Source of the DNA: a virus
Reading direction: 5' to 3' (one strand)
Virus record (IMG/VR): IMGVR_UViG_3300021379_001659
Span: 1-23,649 of that record
DNA length: 23,649 nt
Shown here: piece by piece, positions 1,488 through 19,922 of the stretch
Position numbering within the stretch: the stretch's first letter is position 1
Layout: each line of letters begins with the position of its first letter
Position numbers and translations under genes: made by a program
Notes under the pieces: model-generated
The model's input: the letters and a program-made list of their open reading frames with translations, nothing else
The model's database searches: none
Told to the model about the DNA's origin: nothing

Positions 1488-1853
1488 CTATCCTCTATTC
1501 ACTTTAGCAAGTGATTCTCTTTCTTTTTGCTTTTGTGCGTAAAACTTACCTAATTCATCTTCACCAATCTTTAAAAGATCGAATACAGCACGTCTTTCCT
1601 CAACTTCGTAGATATTCATGATAGCTTCAAGTCCTGCGTAGTCTTTGCCGAACCAGGAACCGCTCATACCATCCCAACGATCAGGTAGCACATTTAGCAG
1701 AATAAGAGCTTGTTGACAATTAATGGATAAAGTAGATGGGTCTTTTGGAAGTTGTTTTTCATCAATTTCCCAGCCCATCTGCTCACACATCATAATGTAC
1801 TGATCTTGATTCATACCCCCAGCAAAAAGAGAGTTGCGGAGGTAATCAATTAG
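1488..1853 (-). CDS. Tail assembly chaperone, downstream (T) part made by -1 frameshift
   Basis: This frame follows the 143-residue chaperone in the -1 frame. It is open from the slippery site at 1853-1859 through the ATG at 1814 to the TAG at 1488. The 108 residues after that ATG contain MMCEQMGWEID, which resembles the short region after the shift in lambda GT-type proteins. The ATG at 1814 is preceded by GGGGGT with essentially no spacing and lacks a usable ribosome binding site, so independent initiation is unlikely. Slippage on A AAA AAC would join 143 residues to 13 linking residues and then these 108, a 264-residue fusion. In lambda, G and GT load the tape measure and recruit the major tail protein. 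The two-base gap to the tape measure gene fits that role. The function is inferred from order, the shift site and the sequence resemblance. Confidence 0.8.
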   Translation of the reverse strand, partial: LIDYLRNSLFAGGMNQDQYIMMCEQMGWEIDEKQLPKDPSTLSINCQQALILLNVLPDRWDGMSGSWFGKDYAGLEAIMNIYEVEERRAVFDLLKIGEDELGKFYAQKQKERESLAKVNRG

Positions 1854-2281
1854 TTTTTTGCGTCTTCTTCCGCTTTCTGTTTTGAAAACTGCTCAAAATC
1901 ATTCATTGCGTCTGTAACGAATTGGTCAAATACAGTAGAAGATTTAAGAAGTTCTACAGCTTCCTCTTCACTATAATCGATATTTTCATTTGCGTCCATT
2001 CCTGAAATATCAACAGGAAGAAGAACCGGAAGATGCTTTACTTTAAGCCCTTTCCAGCCAATGATTGCTTTTTCGGCATAGTGATCAAGAAATTTATCAT
2101 TGTCAATTTCTTCTTCACGCTGACGAGTACGCTTATTGAATTTATATGCAAGTGATTGGTTGCGAATTTTCATCAGATCTTCGCGTGTCAAATAACGAAG
2201 ATTGACTACGAAACCATCAATATCTGGGAACTCTACCCAGGTAGTGGTTTCTTTTGCAATAAGATTTCCGATTTTACTCAT
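1850..2281 (-). CDS. Tail assembly chaperone, upstream (G) part
   Basis: A 143-residue protein starting at ATG 2281 with GAGGGG about five bases upstream. It opens with MSKIGNLIAKETTTWVEFPD, and the charged, lysine- and glutamate-rich end (KQKAEEDAKN) runs straight into the slippery heptamer. It has no membrane segment and no catalytic motif. It lies between the major tail protein and the tape measure, where siphoviruses carry the G/GT chaperones that hold the tape measure soluble during tail assembly. Its ribosome binding site is one strand of a possible RNA switch in the 127-base gap upstream. The length is typical of G-like proteins. Identification rests on context and the frameshift site; I do not recognise a strict family signature. 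Confidence 0.82.
   Translation of the reverse strand: MSKIGNLIAKETTTWVEFPDIDGFVVNLRYLTREDLMKIRNQSLAYKFNKRTRQREEEIDNDKFLDHYAEKAIIGWKGLKVKHLPVLLPVDISGMDANENIDYSEEEAVELLKSSTVFDQFVTDAMNDFEQFSKQKAEEDAKN
1853..1859 (-). other. -1 ribosomal frameshift slippery heptamer A AAA AAC
   Basis: On the minus strand the last codons of the 143-residue gene read GCA AAA AAC TAA. The bases A AAA AAC form a canonical X XXY YYZ slippery heptamer in the correct phase. After a -1 slip the next codons are CTA ATT GAT TAC, and the frame stays open into the next gene. A purine-rich stretch (GCGGAAGAAG) lies just upstream and might act as an internal Shine-Dalgarno stimulator, as known for dnaX; I see no strong downstream hairpin. 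Location, phase and gene context all match the G/GT arrangement. Confidence 0.85.
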
Positions 2282-2286
2282 GATTT

Positions 2287-2396
2287 CCCCTCATAAAATG
2301 CGAGTGCCTACCACATAGTCTGCTTCTCTAAGGTGAGGGGGAACCTTGATCTGCAAGTGGTAGGCACTCTCTGGTAAATATTAGTGTCCCCCCTCA
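2287..2396 (-). promoter_or_regulatory. Structured 5' leader of the tail chaperone gene, possible RNA switch
   Basis: The gap between the major tail protein stop and the chaperone start holds a perfect 13-bp inverted repeat, GAGTGCCTACCAC at 2302-2314 and its complement at 2357-2369, with a 42-base loop. The loop carries CCCCCTCA (minus strand, 2341-2334). That segment is perfectly complementary over 8 bases to TGAGGGGG upstream of the stem (2396-2389), and over 7 bases to TGAGGGG downstream of it (2293-2287), which contains the chaperone's Shine-Dalgarno. The two pairings exclude each other. The downstream pairing would form a pseudoknot hiding the ribosome binding site. A 5-bp inner hairpin (AAGGT/ACCTT) brackets the loop segment. 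The complementarities are read from the sequence; regulation by them is inference. It could instead be a plain transcription attenuator, though only TTTT follows the stem. Confidence 0.6.
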
Positions 2397-2407
2397 GAAA
2401 CACTTAA

Positions 2408-3679
2408 TTAAGTTTTTGCAGCAACGATGGTTACTTCACCACCGGCGCCTTTGTTAGCAGTTGTTTCCTGACCAACAAAGTTAACTGTCATTGAGATAAC
2501 GTCCTCTGTAGCCAGTACTGGGAATTCAAACTGAACTGCATCAAGCTGGAAGGCAACGTATGGAGCTGTTGTTCCACCAATGATGAGGTTAGCATTTGAA
2601 GTCTGTGCTGAAGCTGTACGAGAGTCGTTAGCAATGTTACGTAAGAATCCAGCGGATTCTGTATCACCAGAACGAAGATACATAGTAGCTGAACCTGTTA
2701 CGGCACGAGTACCAGTAAACTGACCGATAGGCTCGTTCAGGTTAGCAAGTTCTTCTGGTGTTAAATATGTAATGTTGTTGTTATAGTCAAAGCTCAAAGC
2801 TGTAACTGGGAACGTAAACTTCACGTCTGCACCACCAGCAGAAGGCTGATGATGGAATTCAATCGCGCTCAAACGATTCTTAATGAATGAGTTAGTACCG
2901 ATTGATCCAGCAACGTTCATCTGGTTAAATGGATGGTATGCAGCTGTTACTGTAGCTTCACTTGAGTTTGAATTAGCTGTAACTGACGTACCATCGTTAA
3001 GAACACCACCAAACACTGAAACAGCATTATCACGAGGATCACCTGTTAATTCTTTTAGAGTAGTTCCAAAACCAGCCCATGTGACTGTAGCGATTTCTTC
3101 GATACCCGCGTCAACAGTTGCCTGGTTAACAGTAGCATTTGAAACCTGATAAATCACGTTATCCATTTTAAAGTACATGTGGTTTTCTTGTGCTGTAGCA
3201 AAGTTTGAACGTGATGAATGAACACCTGTTGCAGCAGCTGTATTAGTAGTAAACAGTTTACCGCCGTCATTCCAAACTGATTGCTCATCTACACCAGAGG
3301 CTGGTGCAGTGTTAGAAACCATAGCTTGCCACATAAACCAGTCAGCAACAGGTTTTACGTTACCTGTTTGTGTGGTTCCGGCAGACGACCCATCAGCAGC
3401 TGCTCCAGTAGTAATGCCTGTTGGACGAAGGTAAACCTGTAAGTTCCAATCAACAGGATTAATAGCAGTATTAAAGCGCTGCTGTGAACGATCAGGGTTT
3501 GTTCCTGATTCGAGGCTTGTAATATCCTGCGTAGCAGCTGAAGAAGATGCTGCAAATCCAGCTAACACTTCAAGTTTCCAAGTGTTTTCTGGAGTCATTG
3601 CTGTAACAGCAGCACCGTTGATCAAATCAACTGTGGACAAAAATACCTCAGAATTTCTTTGTAAATTGAGAGATGCCAT
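2408..3679 (-). CDS. Major tail protein (tail tube)
   Basis: A 423-residue protein starting at ATG 3679, with AAGGAG eight bases upstream, one of the strongest ribosome binding sites in the window, as expected for an abundant virion protein. The sequence is Thr/Ala/Asn-rich and beta-strand-like, without catalytic motifs, signal peptide or membrane segment. It contains SPTA-like tube features such as INPVDWNLQVYLRPTG near residue 75 and a C-terminal strand region (EDVISMTVNFVGQETTANKG). Order decides the call: it follows the tail-terminator-like gene and precedes the G/GT chaperones and tape measure. It is longer than lambda gpV (about 250 residues), so extra surface domains are likely. The structured gap after it would allow much higher output than the chaperone. 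Confidence 0.8.
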   Translation of the reverse strand: MASLNLQRNSEVFLSTVDLINGAAVTAMTPENTWKLEVLAGFAASSSAATQDITSLESGTNPDRSQQRFNTAINPVDWNLQVYLRPTGITTGAAADGSSAGTTQTGNVKPVADWFMWQAMVSNTAPASGVDEQSVWNDGGKLFTTNTAAATGVHSSRSNFATAQENHMYFKMDNVIYQVSNATVNQATVDAGIEEIATVTWAGFGTTLKELTGDPRDNAVSVFGGVLNDGTSVTANSNSSEATVTAAYHPFNQMNVAGSIGTNSFIKNRLSAIEFHHQPSAGGADVKFTFPVTALSFDYNNNITYLTPEELANLNEPIGQFTGTRAVTGSATMYLRSGDTESAGFLRNIANDSRTASAQTSNANLIIGGTTAPYVAFQLDAVQFEFPVLATEDVISMTVNFVGQETTANKGAGGEVTIVAAKT

Positions 3680-3691
3680 CTCTTTTTCTCC

Positions 3692-4144
3692 TTATCCGTC
3701 TAATCTATAGACTATTGTTAATTCAACCTCTGCTAATCCATAAGGAGTTGCAAGTCCTTCATCTGAGGTGATACTGTCTATGGTTATATCAAGTATACCT
3801 TTATCAGGATGGTCTCCGATAGAATAAATAACATGCTCTATATCTTGAACTGTGTCATCTACGAGGCTTTGAGAATTATCTTCTCCGAATACGTATGCTC
3901 TTATGGTAACGTCTAATGTTGCTACCGTCAAACTTTTAGAATTAAAATCTCTAATTTCGGTCCCAGCACTTACGTAAAGCGCTGGAAAGTCGTTTACTTC
4001 GTCGAGGAACTTAACTCTCCGATAAACATTATTAAACAAATTTTGTGAATAGGTATAGCCAGCATTAAACCCAGAGACCCCACCATCGATCTCTTTGAGT
4101 TGTGTAACTAAAAATTCTGTAATTTCTGTACGTCTTGATGCCAT
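3692..4144 (-). CDS. Tail terminator / tail completion-like protein (copy 1)
   Basis: A 150-residue protein placed directly before the major tail protein, the position of lambda gpU and HK97 gp10-gp11-type tail terminators that cap the tube and join it to the head. Visible landmarks are VYRRVKFLDEVNDFP around residues 40-54 and DEGLATPYGLAEVELTIVYRL at the C terminus; the second matches the beta-strand end typical of this family. The start overlaps the upstream stop by one base (TAATG), so translation is probably coupled. A clear second copy of the same family lies at 19497-19922, next to the probable small terminase. The family call rests on size, position and the resemblance of both copies. 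A neck protein of the same fold is an alternative. Confidence 0.68.
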   Translation of the reverse strand: MASRRTEITEFLVTQLKEIDGGVSGFNAGYTYSQNLFNNVYRRVKFLDEVNDFPALYVSAGTEIRDFNSKSLTVATLDVTIRAYVFGEDNSQSLVDDTVQDIEHVIYSIGDHPDKGILDITIDSITSDEGLATPYGLAEVELTIVYRLDG

Positions 4145-5571
4145 TATTTTCTAATAAACCTGTAATATGTTCCTATTAATTGTTGAACAGCAGGTCTTAA
4201 ACCTTGTTGCTCAATAAGCTTACTGGGAGCTCTTCTCTCACTCTCAAAAACATTATAAATCGGGTCATAAGTATATTCAAGAAATTGTTTTTTCTCATTA
4301 ATTCTTAATATCTGAAATGACTCTGCAAATCTTCCTGTACGTTCAGTAAGAACTAGTGGGTTTGGTTTTGGCGGGCCGCCAGGAGTTCCTTTAGGCATTG
4401 TAGCTCTAAACAACCTACGCGCAAGTGCCTCTATTTGCTCTTTACTAATTGCTGCTTGAAATTCTCTTGGAACAAGTTTTCTTTTTCGTGCACTTCCTAA
4501 ATTAGGTTTAGCTCTAGTCGCAATGGCACCCATTTTAGTGGATACATCTGTTTCCATTTCAACTATAAATGGTTCTCCTCCCATAGAAGGATCGAACTGG
4601 GCCGCTAATGCAATGAGTTCTCCGTAGGTCTGAGCTAATTCAATGCCTGATCTCTTTTTAAGTAAATTAGCCCCTCCACCTCTTACGTAGTACTGAAATA
4701 ATCTATCTGCAAAATTAGCTCCTATTCTATCCAGCATCTGTTTTGATACATCTATAGAATATTGTTTAATTAAAGCATATGCTTGAGAGTTCAGATTATA
4801 CTGTATAGAAGTAAACCCTTTTGTACGAGAACCAAATAATTCGACAGTAACAAATTTTCTAAAGTTTGAGGGGTTTTTAAGATTCAAAATTTTAGCAGCA
4901 CCAGGAGTAACTGCAATACTAGGTTTAGAAGAAAAACCACCTTTTTCATCAACATAGGTTATAGTTAAAAGGTTAGTTATTTTTTGAGATATCGCAGTAA
5001 TAACAGTATTACGATATGACGAATCAGCTTCTGTTAAAAACCAATTCATCAAGGCATCCTTTGATTTACCGCCCTTAGCCATGACTTGAGCAGTTCTTTC
5101 AGTAAGTTGTTCAAGAACTGGTCGTCCTGGTGTTTGCTGAGTGATAGATTCGCTTGTTTTGCCTTTAGCAATTGTTTGTTTTAATTCAAGAGTTACTAAA
5201 TCTTGATCGATTAAAAGCCCTGCATCTCTTTGTGCGGCTAATAGCTCATCAACTACCCTTTTAGGCAGCATTTTTCTAAGATCTTCCTCTTTTACTTCAA
5301 TGTCTGGAGTAGATCCTGGAGCAGCATAACCTTTTCCTGTTGCTTCTTGCTTTGACGGCTCCCCTAAAAAACCCAAAAAGCCTTCAATACCATATCCGGT
5401 TCTTACTCCTTTACCAGAGAAAAAGTCAGAAAGTGTCTGAAGATTGAGCATCTTCTTGCGTTGTTCTGGGTTAGTTCTAAACTTACCTGCCTTAAAATCA
5501 TTTAGCGCAGATAAGAACTCTTTCGGAGGTCTACCGTCAAAAACAAGCTTAGTATCAAGCTTAAAAGTCAC
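4144..5571 (-). CDS. Neck-region structural protein of unknown type
   Basis: A 475-residue protein between the connector and the tail terminator, a position where head closure or HK97 gp10-like tail completion proteins are normally found. I do not recognise the full-length protein. The last 75 residues, with LTERTGRFAESFQI followed by strands and a YDPIYNVFE segment, look like the small gp10-type neck protein (RTGRL-type motif then beta strands). The first 400 residues would then be an extra N-terminal region; it is basic and helical, with segments such as FKAGKFRTNPEQRKKML near the start. There is no signal peptide or membrane segment. The start overlaps the upstream stop in an ATGA. If the gp10 reading is right, the protein is three to four times the usual length. 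Confidence 0.55.
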   Translation of the reverse strand: MTFKLDTKLVFDGRPPKEFLSALNDFKAGKFRTNPEQRKKMLNLQTLSDFFSGKGVRTGYGIEGFLGFLGEPSKQEATGKGYAAPGSTPDIEVKEEDLRKMLPKRVVDELLAAQRDAGLLIDQDLVTLELKQTIAKGKTSESITQQTPGRPVLEQLTERTAQVMAKGGKSKDALMNWFLTEADSSYRNTVITAISQKITNLLTITYVDEKGGFSSKPSIAVTPGAAKILNLKNPSNFRKFVTVELFGSRTKGFTSIQYNLNSQAYALIKQYSIDVSKQMLDRIGANFADRLFQYYVRGGGANLLKKRSGIELAQTYGELIALAAQFDPSMGGEPFIVEMETDVSTKMGAIATRAKPNLGSARKRKLVPREFQAAISKEQIEALARRLFRATMPKGTPGGPPKPNPLVLTERTGRFAESFQILRINEKKQFLEYTYDPIYNVFESERRAPSKLIEQQGLRPAVQQLIGTYYRFIRK

Positions 5572-6905
5572 GAGATGATCCTATATAAATCTAAAATACG
5601 TCTGATATGAGGAGGGAAATTTCCAGCAAGCGGATAGCCTTCAGCACGCTCGCCTTCAAACGAAAAGCCTTTCTTCTCTTGGTCTTGTTTGTATAACAGT
5701 TTAATCATATCAAGTGTTGCGAGTTGTAAATCTTGTGGTACATCACCTGATTCATAACCAGCACGATACTCTACTTTAACTCCTGAAGGAAACGGCGCAA
5801 AAGAAGGAGGACCTGCTAATGTTAGTGCTGGATAGTTATTACGAATTGTTGGGAAAGAACCTCTGATTCCTACAGCACCTGTATCACGCGTAACTTCTCC
5901 CATATCTCTTGTAAAGTTATATTCATTAGTTTCGCTATGAACATCTTTTGCTTCAGTAGCATCATTTTTACCATCAAAATGAGTTAAGAAAATAGTATCT
6001 CCATCAGGTCTAAAACGTTTTTCCGGAGGAGTAAAGTCAGAAGAGTAACGAGAGATATCTGATACTCTTACCTCATCCATATATCCTTTAAATGTTGTTG
6101 CAATTTCAACGTTTGAAGTAAACGTCAAATTCTCGACAGCAAAAGAAGCGTCAGCAATGGTATTACCATTATAGTGTAAATAAACTTTTTCTTCAGTAAG
6201 ATCGCGGGATACTGCTACATGTGCCCAACGACGTTTTGCAAATTGCTGAGTTTCAATGTCAGTATTTGCTCCTTGGATAGTTGTTGCTGATCCTGAAACA
6301 TTTGCCTCAAATTCCAAACCATACTGATTTGCAAGCCTAAATTGAATATAATTTGATGAGTCTGTATTAATTGCAAATAAGACGTTATCTTGTAGTGTCG
6401 CATCATCAACACGAATAAACATCTCGATGGTAAAATCACCCTCTTCAAATTTTAAGTTTGAAGGAACTGTAGAGCCTAACACAAAATCTGAAATTCCAGT
6501 TTCAAGTGATGATTTACCAAATTTTTTGACACGAGAGTTAAGATGCGCATTATTCTGAAAAGTAAGAGTAAGCGCATCAGTGTCTTGAGTAGTAACAGGG
6601 CGGCCTATAGTAGTTGGATCTGCCAGAATTACGTCTTCTACTCCATTATACTCAGAAACTTGATAAACATTAGAGAGTGGTAGACGAGATACCATAACTG
6701 AAGTTTTACCTCCATCAAATACTTCTGTGTAGTTATTGGCTAAAATTTCTTGACCAATATAGTGCTCAACTACTCCAGTTGCATATGAAATAATATTTGA
6801 AAGACGAGCATCAGATGTAGTTGAGCTTATACTCAAGTAATCTTTTACTTGTGCTAATGTTACAAAAGGGTATTTACCTAAACTTTCTTCTAATCTGTCT
6901 ACCAT
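5568..6905 (-). CDS. Head-tail connector (gp6-like) with an inserted LamG-like domain
   Basis: A 445-residue protein. Residues 1 to about 90 (KYPFVTLAQVKDYLSIS, then SDARLSNIISYATGVVEHYIG) are the helical start of gp6/gp15-type head-tail connectors. Residues about 372-445, with SGVKVEYRAGYESGDVPQDL followed by a long helix, are the end of the same fold. Between them, residues about 112-312 look like a concanavalin A/LamG-like jelly roll: VKKFGKSSLETG, FEEGDFTIEMFIRVDD, RRWAHVAVSRD, GYMDEVRVSDISRY and a closing HFDG. Connectors of this family are usually about 100 residues, so the LamG-like module accounts for the size. Connectors form a ring under the portal; an inserted lectin-like domain would project from the neck. 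The start follows the 74-residue gene by 11 bases. The two halves fit the connector family well; carbohydrate binding is inference. Confidence 0.75.
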   Translation of the reverse strand: MVDRLEESLGKYPFVTLAQVKDYLSISSTTSDARLSNIISYATGVVEHYIGQEILANNYTEVFDGGKTSVMVSRLPLSNVYQVSEYNGVEDVILADPTTIGRPVTTQDTDALTLTFQNNAHLNSRVKKFGKSSLETGISDFVLGSTVPSNLKFEEGDFTIEMFIRVDDATLQDNVLFAINTDSSNYIQFRLANQYGLEFEANVSGSATTIQGANTDIETQQFAKRRWAHVAVSRDLTEEKVYLHYNGNTIADASFAVENLTFTSNVEIATTFKGYMDEVRVSDISRYSSDFTPPEKRFRPDGDTIFLTHFDGKNDATEAKDVHSETNEYNFTRDMGEVTRDTGAVGIRGSFPTIRNNYPALTLAGPPSFAPFPSGVKVEYRAGYESGDVPQDLQLATLDMIKLLYKQDQEKKGFSFEGERAEGYPLAGNFPPHIRRILDLYRIIS

Positions 6906-7214: not shown

Positions 7215-9965
7215 TTAGGCTCCAGCTTCGATTGTTACAGCGTAGCTGTACTTAGTAGCGTCAAGAGCTGAACTTGAGTTAGTCGTAAGGGCTTTAAAGT
7301 CAATACGAGTGCTCATGTACATAGCAGTGACCTGCTGACGTGGTTCGTACTCGCTCTCAATCTCGATACCGCGACGTTCTGCGATCATAAAGCCAGGCTT
7401 ATAAAGCAGGACACCGATGTCGTTACCCTGAGTACCAACGTTATCTAAGAACTCAGTGATTGCAATTGGAATACCGTAAACGGCGCCAACTGAACCTGTG
7501 AGGTAAGTAGCGTTAGGACCAAACTTGTCAACTGTCTGGAAGTCAGAAGTTGTTACAAGGTTGTTGTAACCTTCGATTGATGTTAAGTACACAAGGTCGT
7601 TACCAAGCTGCAAGCCATACTTGCCAAGCTTAGTGCGGGCTGCAGCGATGTCTGATGGATCAGCTTTATCGTTTGCAGAACCTGTGTCCACAGTCAGACC
7701 AGCGCCTACGTCGTCAGTCAGGTTAGTAATACCTTCGATGACAGACGCATAACCGGTACCAGCTGTAATTGCGTTTGTTGGTTGTGCTGTGAAGCCAGTC
7801 AGAGCACCAGTACCACGCAGGATTGCTTTATCGATAGCGCGGGCTAAACGACGTGTAGCAGCTGCACGCAAGAAGTCGAGCAGAGGAAGAACTGTATCTT
7901 CTTCTTCATCTTTTGCGAGGTGTGTGGTAGCCATGAACTTATGTGGAGTAAAGTCCACTGAGCTGATGGAGTTCTGGTTGCTGGTTGGTACACGGGTGGC
8001 GTCGGCAATGCCAGTAGCAAATGTGCCAGAAGCAAACTGTGCTACATCACCATCGGTGTCTTCATCAGCGACTGGTACGCGGAAAGTTTTCGCGTCAACA
8101 GCCATACGGTTAAACATTGGAGCAACAACCAACTGCTGTTCCATTTCCGTATAAATGTTTTGTGAGAAGTTGCTCAAGAACTGGTCAACAGATGTGACAG
8201 CTTTCATCTTTGCACCATACTTGGTGTCGAAGATGTCACGCTTGTTTAACAGTTTAGCAACCAATACGGCGTTAGCCATTTCTTTTTCAGAATACTGAGC
8301 TTGATTGCGGCTCTGCTCCTGATAGTGCATCTTAGAGCGCTGTAATGCAGCAATCTCTTCTTGATACTTTTCCATCTGAGCTTTAAGTTCAGCAACTTGC
8401 TCAGATTCACGCGGTGTGTAAGCTTCTGCTTTATCACCTTTGACCAGGGTTTGCTGGTCAGCAGCGTCTGCTTCCTTCACGATAGCTTCACCGGTCTTTT
8501 GAACCAGTTCAGCAACTGCAGGCTCAGACACTTCAGCACGTGGTGCTTCTTTTTTGATCTCTTCAGCTGGGGTTGCAGCAGTAAGATCGATTGTATCTAC
8601 GACTTGATCAGCCATTTCGTCTTTCTCCTTATCAGAATTTTCGTGAAGCTCTTTAGTCAGACTTTCGCTTGTAACCGCGTCTTCACTTGTAGATTTTTCG
8701 ACTTGTGAATGTTCTTCTGTTTTCACATTAACAACATTATCACAGTCTTCGCCTTCAGCGTCAACCTCTAAAAATTTAAAGATTGGCGATTGCTCTGTAG
8801 CGACGTTGGTGACTCTAAACATTTTTTCTTGATAGTTTACGAGATCACCATGTTGAAGTTTACTTGCGTCTTCGGAAAGCAAGTTTGTGAACGGGATAGA
8901 TGCCATAGGATCTCTAATTTCAAGCTCCTCTTCATCATCCTTTTCAATGTCAGTGACTTCTTCCGATGATTCTGCTTTGACCTCAACTTCTTCAGTTTCA
9001 GCTTTTTCTTCAGTCACTTCTTCAGACTTCTCTTCAGCTGTTTCTTCAACAGCCTCTGTTACTTCTTCAGTAGCTTCTTCAGCTTTAGCCTCAACCTCAA
9101 CTTCAGCTACTTCTACTTCAGCTTCATCAGCTTTAGTTTCGATAACTTCGTCTTGTTTTGAGTTACTCATTGCTTCCTCCTCGGTTGGAGACAACGGACG
9201 TTCGTTAACAACTTCGCCCTCCTCCATGCTATGAATCGGAACACCTGCCATCGTGATCTCATGAGAGTGGCCTTCGGCCTCTAACACAACACCAGCAACA
9301 ACTTTATGAGCGTGGTTTTGCATATGAGATGCGTAGGTTGTTACACCATTTCCATTTTCATCCATTTCAACAGTATGATAATGGCCTTCGCTCATATCGG
9401 TGATTCCTGCTTTAATTTTACGCATCTTCTTAATTTCTTCAGCGTCAGCCTCTTTAAGAGACTTTTTAAACTCATTAAATTCTTCATCAGAATCAAAAGA
9501 TTTACGAATTGAGAATAATGAATCTTGATTACAAGGAACTGAAACAACTGAAATTTCCAGTAATTCAACTTCCGTGATCATCATAGAATCATCTTCACGA
9601 TTATATTTTCCATCTTTTACTCTGAAACCAACAGAGAAGCTTTTTAAAGCTCCGTCTTTAATAAGAGTTTGTACGCCGTGATTCTTTTCGGCAGCTTCTG
9701 AAACCATGCCTTCAACAAAGATTCCTTTTTTATCAACACGAATATTGTCTACACGACCGATTGGACAGTCATGTTTATGTTGATAAAGTAAAACTGGATT
9801 ACGGCGATAGTTATCTACGCCTTTGGCCCAAGCTTCAGCAGTAACAATATCGCCTGAGCGATCTTTAGCTGTAGTATTGGCATAACCAGCAATCTTTAAA
9901 GATTTAGAACCTTTTTTCAGTGCTTTAGTTTCAAACGAGCTGTTCAAATAAAGTGTTTTATCCAT
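7215..9965 (-). CDS. Fused HK97 prohead protease - acidic linker - major capsid protein
   Basis: One open frame of 916 residues from ATG 9965 (a TTG one codon earlier is also possible; AGAGG lies upstream of both, 9 and 6 bases away). Counting from the TTG, residues about 20-160 are an HK97-type prohead protease (family S78): His-66 in HDCPIGRV, Ser-112 in SFSVGF and the ELLEISVVSVPCN segment. Residues 193-240 hold three HxH motifs. Residues about 270-350 are a Glu/Val/Ala repeat. Residues about 452-560 are coiled coil like an HK97 delta (scaffold) region, and the rest is an HK97-fold capsid protein, ending after EYEPRQQVTAMYMSTRIDFKAL. Two internal ATGs with good ribosome binding sites (9170 and 8615) could make the scaffold-capsid and capsid parts separately. 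The gene overlaps the end of portal. In most HK97-like phages protease and capsid are separate genes, so the fusion is uncommon. Confidence 0.92.
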   Translation of the reverse strand: MDKTLYLNSSFETKALKKGSKSLKIAGYANTTAKDRSGDIVTAEAWAKGVDNYRRNPVLLYQHKHDCPIGRVDNIRVDKKGIFVEGMVSEAAEKNHGVQTLIKDGALKSFSVGFRVKDGKYNREDDSMMITEVELLEISVVSVPCNQDSLFSIRKSFDSDEEFNEFKKSLKEADAEEIKKMRKIKAGITDMSEGHYHTVEMDENGNGVTTYASHMQNHAHKVVAGVVLEAEGHSHEITMAGVPIHSMEEGEVVNERPLSPTEEEAMSNSKQDEVIETKADEAEVEVAEVEVEAKAEEATEEVTEAVEETAEEKSEEVTEEKAETEEVEVKAESSEEVTDIEKDDEEELEIRDPMASIPFTNLLSEDASKLQHGDLVNYQEKMFRVTNVATEQSPIFKFLEVDAEGEDCDNVVNVKTEEHSQVEKSTSEDAVTSESLTKELHENSDKEKDEMADQVVDTIDLTAATPAEEIKKEAPRAEVSEPAVAELVQKTGEAIVKEADAADQQTLVKGDKAEAYTPRESEQVAELKAQMEKYQEEIAALQRSKMHYQEQSRNQAQYSEKEMANAVLVAKLLNKRDIFDTKYGAKMKAVTSVDQFLSNFSQNIYTEMEQQLVVAPMFNRMAVDAKTFRVPVADEDTDGDVAQFASGTFATGIADATRVPTSNQNSISSVDFTPHKFMATTHLAKDEEEDTVLPLLDFLRAAATRRLARAIDKAILRGTGALTGFTAQPTNAITAGTGYASVIEGITNLTDDVGAGLTVDTGSANDKADPSDIAAARTKLGKYGLQLGNDLVYLTSIEGYNNLVTTSDFQTVDKFGPNATYLTGSVGAVYGIPIAITEFLDNVGTQGNDIGVLLYKPGFMIAERRGIEIESEYEPRQQVTAMYMSTRIDFKALTTNSSSALDATKYSYAVTIEAGA
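7789..8615 (-). other. N-terminal (delta and shell) half of the capsid product predicted from the internal start at 8615
   Basis: If translation begins at ATG 8615, the product runs to the stop at 7215 (466 residues), close to the size of an HK97-like capsid precursor. This stretch covers its delta-type coiled coil (SEQVAELKAQMEKYQEEIAA near the start) and the first part of the shell domain, including a likely N-arm around NIYTEMEQQLVVAPMFNRMA. The protease would cut between the two. The exact cleavage site cannot be read from the sequence. The remainder of the shell domain continues to 7215. Confidence 0.5.
8613..8630 (-). promoter_or_regulatory. Internal ribosome binding site and ATG for the capsid part
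   Basis: Within the protease-capsid frame, AAGGAG (8630-8625) stands nine bases before an in-frame ATG (8615). The product would begin MADQVVDTIDLTAATP and be 466 residues, the expected size of an HK97-type capsid precursor with its delta region. This is a full-strength site rather than a chance GAG, and it sits exactly at the domain boundary. Confidence 0.7.
8930..9150 (-). repeat. Acidic low-complexity linker in the protease-capsid gene
   Basis: About 75 residues composed almost only of Glu, Val, Ala, Thr and Lys, with repeated units such as EEVTE, EVEVE and EAKAEE. The DNA is a run of TTC-, TCAG- and CTTCTTCAG-type repeats on the plus strand. It separates the protease part from the capsid part. 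It is likely disordered and strongly negative, so it may act as internal scaffold or counter basic surfaces. Repeat slippage should make its length variable between relatives. Confidence 0.75.
9168..9181 (-). promoter_or_regulatory. Internal ribosome binding site and ATG at the start of the acidic linker
   Basis: AGGAGG (9181-9176) lies five bases before an in-frame ATG (9170), giving a product that begins MSNSKQDEVIE and is 651 residues if it runs to the capsid stop. A consensus site of this quality inside a gene is hard to put down to chance, although the upstream codons (Glu-Glu-Glu-Ala) also favour purines. It would yield linker plus capsid without the protease. Confidence 0.55.
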
Positions 9966-11217
9966 CAACTGTATCCTCTAAATTAGTAGATTCCTCTTGG
10001 GAAGGTCTTCCACCCTGGGTAGCATCAGTTGCGCTACCTGTAATGTTCTGTGGTATTCTTATGGTATCATTATTCTCGATTTTTGGAAATCTTAATCCTT
10101 CACGAGCTTCATTTGGGGTAATAATTCCTGTATTAACCAGAGTTGAGTAATAAACTGCCTGTGTTCTGTTGTCTGGTTGTAAAGCAGGGACTGCTAATCT
10201 GTCAGGAGTGATAGTTACTCCACCATTGAAATGATGGGAGAATGCTGAACAGAACTGAGTTAAGATTGGTAAAACAGTGTGTAGATAGAAAAGTTTTTGA
10301 TTGGCGTCAATATTTGCGTTATTTCCAGATTTAAGCAAAACATAAGGAACACCTAAAGCCTTTGCCATATCCTGTTGAATGCGTTCGATAGAGTTTTCAA
10401 AATCTAACTGATCAAAAGATTTTGTAGAGAACTCGTCGATCTTTAAGCCGCCATCAAGAATTGCGGGATTACGAGCACCATCAAAGATGGTGGTATAAGA
10501 AGCTCTCCATGATTCTAAAAGACGTTCTTTAACTCTTTTAGAAAGAATGTTGTCCGTAGTAAGAACAAAACCGGGAAGAGCATTATTCTTAAAAAACTGT
10601 CTCTGGAACTTAATCATATAATAGTAAAGTTCCATTAAATTTAAGATTGGCTTAAGTTTAGATGTACCTCTAAAAATGGAAAGCTCATTTTCTGCCATAA
10701 TATGAATAATCTCAAAAGGCTCAAATCTAATAGCTTCACTTTTTGAAGTTTGTTTACCACGCCCAAAACCGTAAAAATCATTTGCCTGTTGATTGTGGAC
10801 TAAATAGTTATAATGAGATACAAAGGTGCGATCATCTGGAACTACTTCCACATCATTTGCAGGAAGTAAGTATAGAGAATCCCCATCATAATAGAAAAAG
10901 GCATTACCGTCTAGATGGAAGTCTAAAAAAGCTCGTCTGAATAGACGAGTACGATCTTCAAAAGGATTAGGCTTTACGTTAAGAAGTTTGTTAACTTTTT
11001 TAGCTGAACCACCAGAAATATTAAGAGGAATTTCGCATAAAGCGTTAATGACCATCTCAACAGAACGATGAACAACTTCAATCTCACGATAAGCTTGTTC
11101 ATAATCAACAATAGTTTCTGGAGATGCAAAAGGTTCAAGAGCTGCAACAGAAGGTTGTGCCGGATTAAGCTTTTCTGCTACCCACTCTCTAAAACTACGT
11201 CTATCGTTATCTGCCAT
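9958..11217 (-). CDS. Portal protein (HK97 family)
   Basis: A 419-residue protein starting at ATG 11217 with AAGGA five bases upstream. It shows the HK97-portal pattern: an N-terminal VHRSVEMVINALCEIPL helix near residue 48-64, a FHLDGNAFFYYDGDSLYLLP strand region near 100-120, EIIHI and FRGTSKLKPIL in the wing, then FSTKSFDQLDFENSIERIQQ and a stem helix with IAxALGVP-like MAKALGVPYVLL. The C terminus has a GIITPNEAREGLRFPKI segment, very typical of this family. Twelve copies form the ring through which DNA is packaged and ejected. It overlaps the HNH gene by 11 bases upstream and the protease-capsid gene by a few bases downstream, so head genes are translated in a coupled row. Confidence 0.95.
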   Translation of the reverse strand: MADNDRRSFREWVAEKLNPAQPSVAALEPFASPETIVDYEQAYREIEVVHRSVEMVINALCEIPLNISGGSAKKVNKLLNVKPNPFEDRTRLFRRAFLDFHLDGNAFFYYDGDSLYLLPANDVEVVPDDRTFVSHYNYLVHNQQANDFYGFGRGKQTSKSEAIRFEPFEIIHIMAENELSIFRGTSKLKPILNLMELYYYMIKFQRQFFKNNALPGFVLTTDNILSKRVKERLLESWRASYTTIFDGARNPAILDGGLKIDEFSTKSFDQLDFENSIERIQQDMAKALGVPYVLLKSGNNANIDANQKLFYLHTVLPILTQFCSAFSHHFNGGVTITPDRLAVPALQPDNRTQAVYYSTLVNTGIITPNEAREGLRFPKIENNDTIRIPQNITGSATDATQGGRPSQEESTNLEDTVDG

Positions 11218-19057: not shown

Positions 19058-19500
19058 TCCATGAGGTCTCGCATGAGCTTGTCATAGTTGTTAATTTGTA
19101 CAGCTACCGCAGGTCCCTGCGTTTTCGGCTTGAGTCCTGTTTCCACTTCTTGTAGATGCTTCATCCAGTCGAGTAGATCTTTTTTAGAGTAGATGCCTGT
19201 TTCCACCGCTTCTTGTATCTTTTGATCAATCACCGCATTGATGAGATTGATGCGCTTTATACGATTAAGATATCCTTGAGTGGCAAACACTGAATCGATG
19301 TAGTTCTTCACCTCTTTTTTCTCAATGACCGCAGTCACGCGGTCCTCCGAAATGCCATACTCTTCAGATATCTCTTCAATTCCTTTGCCCGATAGGTAAT
19401 CGTTAGCGAGCGCCAACATCACCGGGTCCAGAGGCGGAGCCTCTAAGCTGCGGTTAAGTGCATCAACAGTTGTTGTTACTGAATTGTTTGAACGTGTCAT
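19054..19500 (-). CDS. terS: Probable terminase small subunit
   Basis: A 148-residue protein with GGAG eight bases before ATG 19500. Residues about 28-58 (MLALANDYLSGKGIEEISEEYGISEDRVTAV) form a helix-turn-helix, as in DNA-binding small terminases. The following helices (VKNYIDSVFATQGYLNR, then INAVIDQKIQEAVETGIYSKKDLLDWMKHLQEVE) match the oligomerisation part of many phage small terminases, and the tail (AVAVQINNYDKLMRDLM) is a usual ending. It would recognise the packaging start and hand DNA to the large subunit. It is not next to TerL, which lies about 5.6 kb downstream. The call rests on architecture and my memory of the family; a transcription regulator is the main alternative. Confidence 0.7.
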   Translation of the reverse strand: MTRSNNSVTTTVDALNRSLEAPPLDPVMLALANDYLSGKGIEEISEEYGISEDRVTAVIEKKEVKNYIDSVFATQGYLNRIKRINLINAVIDQKIQEAVETGIYSKKDLLDWMKHLQEVETGLKPKTQGPAVAVQINNYDKLMRDLME

Positions 19501-19922
19501 GTTGTAATCTCCACATCATAAGTAATTGCGAGTGATATATCAGCTATTCCATAAGGTGTCATGAGTCCATCATCGGTGCGTAGCGTAGCTACGCGTGCCT
19601 CTTCAACGCCATGTTGCGGATAGGTGTCGGCAAAGCTATCTATCGCGGCCTCCACCTGATCGGCCAGCCGTTCGCATTCTGATGCGATATCGTCAGTATC
19701 CCCATCGTATACATAGACGCGAAGGTCAATACCTAAAATATCCATCTGACGGCCTGCACCGCGATGATCACGCTCCGCACGGCGTGGAACAAACGTGATT
19801 GTCGGAAAGTCGTTCACATCATCTAAATACTTAAATCGTCTAAAGACATTTGCCGGCAACACGTCAGTGTTGGAGCCAAGATGTGAAACAAAAGCTTCTA
19901 TGATATCGTTACGTCGGGCCAT
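19497..19922 (-). CDS. Tail terminator-like protein (copy 2)
   Basis: A 141-residue protein that is clearly related to the 150-residue tail-terminator-like protein at 3692-4144. Both start with a short helix, then VFRRFKYLDDVNDFP (VYRRVKFLDEVNDFP in copy 1), a strand region with YVYDGD (YVFGED), a long helix, and a C-terminal TDDGLMTPYGIADISLAITY (SDEGLATPYGLAEVELTIVY). The middle has diverged freely. It overlaps the next gene in an ATGA and overlaps the upstream gene by 25 bases, so it has no ribosome binding site of its own worth noting. Having two members far apart in one phage is unusual. Possible roles are a second neck or tail-end protein, or a protein that replaces copy 1 in some virions. 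Confidence 0.68.
   Translation of the reverse strand: MARRNDIIEAFVSHLGSNTDVLPANVFRRFKYLDDVNDFPTITFVPRRAERDHRGAGRQMDILGIDLRVYVYDGDTDDIASECERLADQVEAAIDSFADTYPQHGVEEARVATLRTDDGLMTPYGIADISLAITYDVEITT

Follow-up and report, generated by a model that had tools for sequence, protein, structure and literature searches.

A conserved structured RNA between the major tail protein and tail assembly chaperone genes of uncultured marine phages, a candidate translational attenuator

A long hairpin separates the genes for the major tail protein and the tail assembly chaperone in a marine phage genome, and its loop is complementary both to a segment upstream and to the ribosome binding site (RBS) of the chaperone. 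Do the two complementarities control the chaperone start, and what would make the RNA change from one to the other? The first-pass annotation of this locus had proposed that they form mutually exclusive pairings, one leaving the start open and the other closing it, with the tail protein as a conceivable ligand. The locus was analyzed in the phage and in its relatives.

Genomic context

The window, a stretch of viral DNA of 23,649 nucleotides, carries a block of late genes on the minus strand, in the order terminase, portal, protease-capsid, head-tail proteins, tail terminator, major tail protein, chaperone G, T extension. The major tail protein gene (2408–3679, minus strand; phrog_3575 major tail protein, E 6.3e-46) ends with a TAA stop at 2408–2410. 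Tail assembly chaperone G, a protein of 143 aa which is the presumed target of control, is encoded at 1850–2281 (minus strand; phrog_313, E 1.4e-13), with the ATG at 2279–2281. The T part of GT (1488–1814, minus strand; phrog_3914 tail assembly chaperone, E 4.9e-10) is predicted to be read by a -1 frameshift at the slippery site A AAA AAC, found in the sequence just before the G stop codon (1853–1859, minus strand). In relatives readable to the end of G, AAAAAAC followed by TAA or TAG closes the chaperone frame. Judged by its sequence, the locus is a lambda-type G/GT chaperone operon, in which T would be joined to G through a -1 slippery site close to the G stop codon. The gap between the major tail protein and the chaperone is there as described, and measures 126 nt (2282–2407, minus strand) rather than 127.

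The source phages are uncultured marine phages related to T5. Identity to Demerecviridae proteins is up to 41% for the terminase and about 36% for the chaperone, and the major tail protein shares 27–30% identity with its T5-like counterparts. Other genes intervene between tail protein and chaperone in those Demerecviridae records that were inspected, where the chaperone gene either abuts its upstream neighbour or overlaps it. The element thus belongs to a lineage in which the two genes are neighbours.

Three further features of the window were noted. Two paralogous tail-terminator-like genes are present, at 19497–19922 and 3692–4144 (both minus strand; 31% identity, E 2e-20), the former residing far from the tail block. 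A single frame of 917 aa (7215–9968, minus strand) corresponds to an S78 prohead protease fused to the major capsid protein, and the head-tail adaptor protein encoded at 5568–6905 (minus strand) has a laminin-G-like domain inserted.

Structure of the element in the window

All the features of the element lie on the minus strand. The gap folds with a z-score of -3.7 on this strand and of -1.5 on the plus strand. The perfect 13-bp stem already reported is present, and its arms GAGTGCCTACCAC (5' arm, 2357–2369) and GTGGTAGGCACTC (3' arm, 2302–2314) form the stem P1 of a hairpin called SL1; no dinucleotide shuffle of the gap, among 300 made, reaches 13 bp, the best stem measuring 10. P1 encloses an inner domain (2320–2356), made by an inner helix UUGC (2353–2356)/GCAG (2320–2323), followed by UC/GA, and by an apical stem AAGGU (2343–2347)/ACCUU (2330–2334). 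These conserved inner helices, missed in the earlier reading, place CCCCUC in an 8-nt loop.

The apical loop CCCCCTCA (2334–2341) is complementary over 8 bp to TGAGGGGG (2389–2396), at the 5' side of SL1, and over 7 bp to TGAGGGG (2287–2293), which is the chaperone RBS and ends 5 nt before the ATG. Both complementarities are exact, as had been claimed, and use the same loop nucleotides. A 7-mer with complements on both sides is found in 7 of 5000 dinucleotide shuffles of the gap. Also missed earlier was a hairpin of the 5' segment itself: it occupies the loop, or the immediate flank of the loop, of SL0, AGTGTTTC[TGAGGG]GGGACACT (2383–2404), which directly follows the tail protein stop and is backed by covariation and minimum free energy (MFE) folds.

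For ease of description four segments are distinguished. Segment 1 is the 5' arm of SL0 (2397–2404), which a ribosome should cover during termination on the tail protein; segment 2, TGAGGGGGGA (2387–2396), is the partner of the SL1 apical loop with which it coevolves; segment 3 is the loop itself, whose CCCCTC is conserved and unpaired in MFE folds; segment 4 is the RBS, the alternative partner of segment 3. Pairings are denoted by segment numbers (1:2, 2:3, 3:4).

Survey of relatives

Chaperone homologues were collected from viral contigs, one genome contig and a scan of DNA patterns. From 274 contigs, many of them redundant, 103 distinct gaps delimited on both sides were obtained, measuring 119 to 159 nt. 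A GAGGGG sequence begins 8–24 nt past the tail protein stop in all 103 (mode 13–14), and all 103 feature a single CCCCTC in the middle of the gap, unpaired in the MFE fold of 102. According to the same folds, a hairpin is formed around the 5' GAGGG in 97 gaps, and the longest stack of SL1 (P1) measures at least 12 bp, again in 97. SL0 is weak in some relatives (L079, L165). At the chaperone RBS, GAGGGG is found in 85 gaps, GAGGG in 13, AGGGG(G) in 3, GAGG only in 2. Relatives keep both the stem and the three segments of the CCCCTCA/TGAGGGG type, the RBS being G-rich throughout; no chaperone relative with sufficient upstream sequence was found to lack the element.

The elements fall into two sequence classes, and the window element belongs to class I. 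In class II (L213, L264, L268, L279, L288, L292 and others) P1 and the apical stem have different sequences and the nucleotides of the class I inner domain are replaced wholesale; the three segments are kept. The linker between SL1 and the RBS measures 7–13 nt in class I, 11–23 nt in class II.

A covariance model of class I finds in the window the element only (E 1.4e-28), and one significant copy in 19 of 20 contigs of large relatives (up to 173 kb); no second copy per genome was found at significant E in these 20 contigs. Class II is included in this set: the class I model recovers the element in 14 of its 15 contigs, at E 3e-5 to 3e-11, and misses the class II record G020, L289, at E <= 1. 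One relative (L267; LUQU01000016.1) carries a class II element and the chaperone on a contig binned in a SAR86 metagenome-assembled genome (MAG). This is possibly a hint at the host, or the phage was co-binned. The class I model did not recover this relative, with 150 of 669 candidates of the genome collection scored.

The degenerate-pattern scan of viral contigs also gave chance matches, which were set aside. In two contigs (L085 near 9078, L091 near 6667 of the reverse complement) GAGGGG, TTACTTGC and CCCCCTC occur shortly upstream of an ATG. These are not the chaperone element, have no match in Rfam, and may be due to chance or mark another element.

Covariation of the hairpins

In 25 class I sequences, double-sided changes are found at 18 of 30 pairs, vs 10.1 in shuffles; 94.6% of the cells are paired, and the covariation score is 0.339, vs 0.199 in shuffles. 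The signal collapses when the partners are slid. Paired changes in the 13-bp stem, for which an alignment of relatives had been suggested as a check, were found in 10 of the 12 P1 pairs counted, with 99.7% of the class I cells paired. SL0 shows double changes in 6 of 8 pairs in the 25 class I relatives (86% of cells paired). In class II double changes occur in 12 of 24 predicted pairs, including most of the apical stem; the inner domain, conserved in class I, has as class II counterpart a covarying stem of 8 pairs. By comparison of relatives, therefore, the element is a conserved structured RNA family in which both SL0 and SL1 are supported.

Which loop pairing is supported

Swap tests were run on 39 cluster representatives. 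With relatedness uncorrected, and the 3' pairing on the same sequences as the only control, each loop fits the 5' segment of its own phage better than it fits those taken from other phages (0/5000 and 0/10000 swaps). In the same test and on the same sequences, loop and RBS (3:4) show no coevolution beyond the core. In the 5' pairing 93.6% of cells are paired and 3 pairs show double changes; the corresponding figures for the 3' pairing are 78.4% and one. The coevolving 5' nucleotides lie just past the invariant GAGGGG core and also form the 3' arm of SL0. An extended 2:3 helix consequently needs SL0 to be at least partly open, so that SL0 and extended 2:3 are mutually exclusive. Among the pairings that would make up an attenuator, 1:2 covaries, 2:3 coevolves, and 3:4 has a conserved core without coevolution.

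The RBS is nevertheless peculiar to this gene. Upstream of the other ORF starts of the same contigs GAGGGG was found in 0 of 412 cases, the common motif being AGGA or AGGAG, and the group made by L279, L291 and L297 retains GAGGGG despite the presence, immediately upstream, of an AAGGAG with better spacing. The match of the RBS with the loop thus looks selected, though its variation does not track that of the loop. The refuting case named in the first-pass annotation, relatives that keep one segment without its partners, occurs in mild form in L089 and L095, which retain the other two segments and have a 3:4 complementarity reduced to GAGG at the RBS. In class I, moreover, the linker of 7–13 nt is short for reaching the tip of a straight hairpin of about 22 bp, unless SL1 bends or P1 opens. 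The notion of exclusive pairings opening and closing the chaperone start is therefore reasonable, given the coevolution of 2:3 and the GAGGGG specific to the chaperone, and is weakened in its closing half, as 3:4 does not coevolve beyond the core.

A ribosome-operated attenuator and its alternatives

The element probably ties production of the chaperone to that of the tail tube protein. As to the manner, the reading we tentatively favour, and to which we give somewhat less than an even chance, is that of a cis-acting structured RNA in the late mRNA, by which translation of the tail tube protein would set translation of the G/GT chaperone through a four-segment attenuator. Segment 1 would pair with segment 2 (GAGGGGG) within SL0; segment 2 may alternatively pair with segment 3 (CCCCUCA), as a kissing loop or, once SL0 is open, as an extended pseudoknot of 8–13 bp; segment 3 may alternatively pair with segment 4 (GAGGGG). 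When no ribosome stands at the tail protein stop, 1:2 and 3:4 would form and the chaperone start would be closed. Termination on the tail protein would place a ribosome over segment 1 and open SL0, whereby 2:3 would form and leave the RBS free. Chaperone synthesis would then keep pace with that of the tail protein (ON while the latter is translated).

SL0, SL1, the coevolution of 2:3 and the gene-specific GAGGGG at the RBS are the parts of this scheme that sequence comparison supports; we infer that 3:4 forms in the cell, that the terminating ribosome is the signal and that the direction is ON. The opposite sign, in which the ribosome would occlude segment 2 and the RBS would close, could also apply. 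The footprint of a terminating ribosome would cover segment 1, and in most gaps segment 2 starts at or beyond its leading edge, as placed by general footprint knowledge. The attenuator is favoured because the 5' arm of SL0 begins right after the stop codon, a position which makes the terminating ribosome a simpler trigger to assume than a tail protein ligand; the adjacency could reflect compact gene packing instead. In crude nearest-neighbour energies, which ignore loop penalties of the pseudoknots, the rival states appear close: subtracting 2:3 from (SL0 + 3:4) gives a median difference of -1.5 kcal/mol, with 33 of the 39 sequences within 6, and is -4.5 kcal/mol in the window.

A bolder formulation, which we hold as possible and less likely than not, is that a ribosome, on completing the tail tube protein, resets a three-way pseudoknot competition and in this way meters chaperone synthesis, stoichiometry being controlled by termination and not by a ligand, and that the elements make up a previously undescribed family of phage mRNA switches.

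Control might reside in a trans-acting factor. A phage protein (tail tube, chaperone or other) or a host factor would bind SL0 or SL1, stabilise one pairing and so control the RBS, the element then acting as an autogenous translational operator. The conserved unpaired nucleotides around the SL1 inner domain (ACCAG, AGAUAU) would suit a protein or ligand site, and precedents exist in the T4 gene 32 pseudoknot (PMC3014915) and in r-protein operators (PMC10931766). Such a switch seems unlikely to us, as nothing was found pointing to any ligand, no riboswitch family matches the element, and the internal nucleotides conserved in class I are wholly replaced in class II, where the three complementary segments persist; this replacement speaks against a riboswitch ligand pocket common to both classes. 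The earlier suggestion that the tail protein is itself the ligand finds no support, the location of SL0 directly after the stop being better suited to a terminating ribosome. Alternatively, a kissing loop between SL0 and SL1 would be the sole working tertiary contact and the G-rich RBS would be incidental. The compact RNA would then serve in processing or stability at the 3' end of the abundant tail protein message, or would lower downstream translation as a rigid block. A 13-bp stem could shield the end of the upstream message or serve as an RNase III site, 2:3 coevolves whereas 3:4 does not, and L089 and L095 keep 2:3 having lost most of 3:4. An incidental RBS leaves unexplained, however, why GAGGGG marks 85 of 103 chaperones and none of the 412 other ORFs, and why it is kept even beside AAGGAG; we give this explanation, too, a low probability.

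SL1 and the U-run that follows it might also act as a leaky intrinsic terminator, lowering transcription of the genes beyond the tail protein. The 8 nt after P1 include 6–7 U, as in an intrinsic terminator, in each of the 20 class II elements (L264, L267, L213, L279, L292 and others). In class I the run is inconsistent (mean 4.8 of 8; 0 in L050, 2 in L034 and L052), the window element is not called terminator-like, more tail genes lie downstream, and the coevolving SL0 loop would be unexplained, all of which makes a terminator quite improbable. That the complementarities are due to chance, or are an artefact of the gap of one phage, is refuted by their presence in 103 of 103 gaps, by the compensatory changes and by the homology searches, and has a negligible probability.

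Three further candidates were set aside. A ribozyme of the HDV type would share the P1/P2 pseudoknot topology, and the local helices P3/P4 flanking the 3' strand of P1 are not found; the topology is rejected since the flanks of CCCCUC pair as the apical stem, which is conserved in class I and supported by compensatory changes in class II. Passage of ribosomes across the gap, by continued coding, readthrough of the stop or hopping, is at odds with gap lengths which vary from 119 to 159 nt without keeping the frame. A hairpin around the RBS and the AUG, as a closing structure, is found in some sequences only and is unconserved.

Relation to known elements

No element of this form had been described between these two genes according to the first-pass annotation, and none was found in the open-licence literature or in Rfam. 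Covariance models of Rfam 15 gave no match at gathering score for the window, and none for 12 other loci; on the element, with E up to 10, only a chance miRNA match was obtained, on the other strand and outside the element. A blastn search of the element against 50,697 phage records gave no match.

Closest in behaviour are attenuation of the ermC type, the repY-repZ region of ColIb-P9 and the timP mRNA, by analogy, none of them being shown to be a relative. Attenuators of the ermC type (and also of the trp type) have four segments with alternative 1:2/3:4 and 2:3 pairings, as proposed for the phage RNA. In ermC-type systems the downstream RBS is accessible or not according to where the ribosome stands on segment 1, again as proposed here; the upstream frame encodes a leader peptide and the ribosome is stalled by a drug. 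The phage element, by contrast, has a structural gene as its upstream frame, and normal termination is the event proposed. Its segment 3, moreover, is provided by the loop of a long hairpin that stands on its own, which would make 2:3 and 3:4 pseudoknots. In IncIalpha ColIb-P9 (as in IncB and IncL-M) termination of the upstream frame opens a hairpin, and a pseudoknot permitting translation of the downstream gene can then form with a hairpin loop. Likeness lies in the opening of a hairpin by termination, proposed for the phage RNA, and in the loop pseudoknot. The plasmid system differs since it serves replication control, involves an antisense RNA and has the pseudoknot just upstream of the RBS; in the phage element the loop has two rival partners, one of which is the RBS itself.

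In the timP mRNA of an enterobacterial type I toxin-antitoxin system, internal pairing of the first stem-loop was proposed to compete with a covarying 7-bp SL1-SL3 pseudoknot which permits translation (PMC11228461). What is alike is that two conformations would exclude each other, one with a first stem-loop paired internally and one with a pseudoknot to a later stem-loop; timP differs in being a toxin mRNA with the RBS sequestered in its own stem-loop, an sRNA as regulator, and no upstream gene on which termination could act. In T4 gene 32, a pseudoknot upstream of the RBS controls translation of a phage mRNA (PMC3014915), but this is an autogenous operator bound by protein, located 67 nt upstream, without alternative pairing with the RBS. 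A long-range pseudoknot is found also in E. coli rpmI-rplT (bL20), where translation of neighbouring genes is coupled and an inhibitory structure lies in between (PMC10931766; PMC12548453). There, the repressor bL20 binds the pseudoknot, homology is lacking, and no switch operated by termination of the gene directly upstream of the kissing hairpin has been proposed. A recent review describes coupling by RNA unfolding and likens it to attenuation; the word pseudoknot is absent from it (PMC12548453). No description of an element such as the present one was found in open-licence papers, and we regard it as a new RNA family of a mechanistic kind already known.

Significance

The ratio of tube protein to G/GT chaperone in tailed phages is understood mainly in terms of the G-GT frameshift. 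A conserved RNA linking both genes makes visible a probable second layer of control, upstream of the frameshift, across a large group of uncultured marine phages. It also allows a concrete and cheap test of whether termination of one gene operates a pseudoknot switch for the next. A review of 2010 remarked that T4 gene 32 perhaps provides the sole viral pseudoknot used in autoregulation of translation (PMC3014915). If confirmed, the element described here would be of interest as a second phage system of translational control by pseudoknots.
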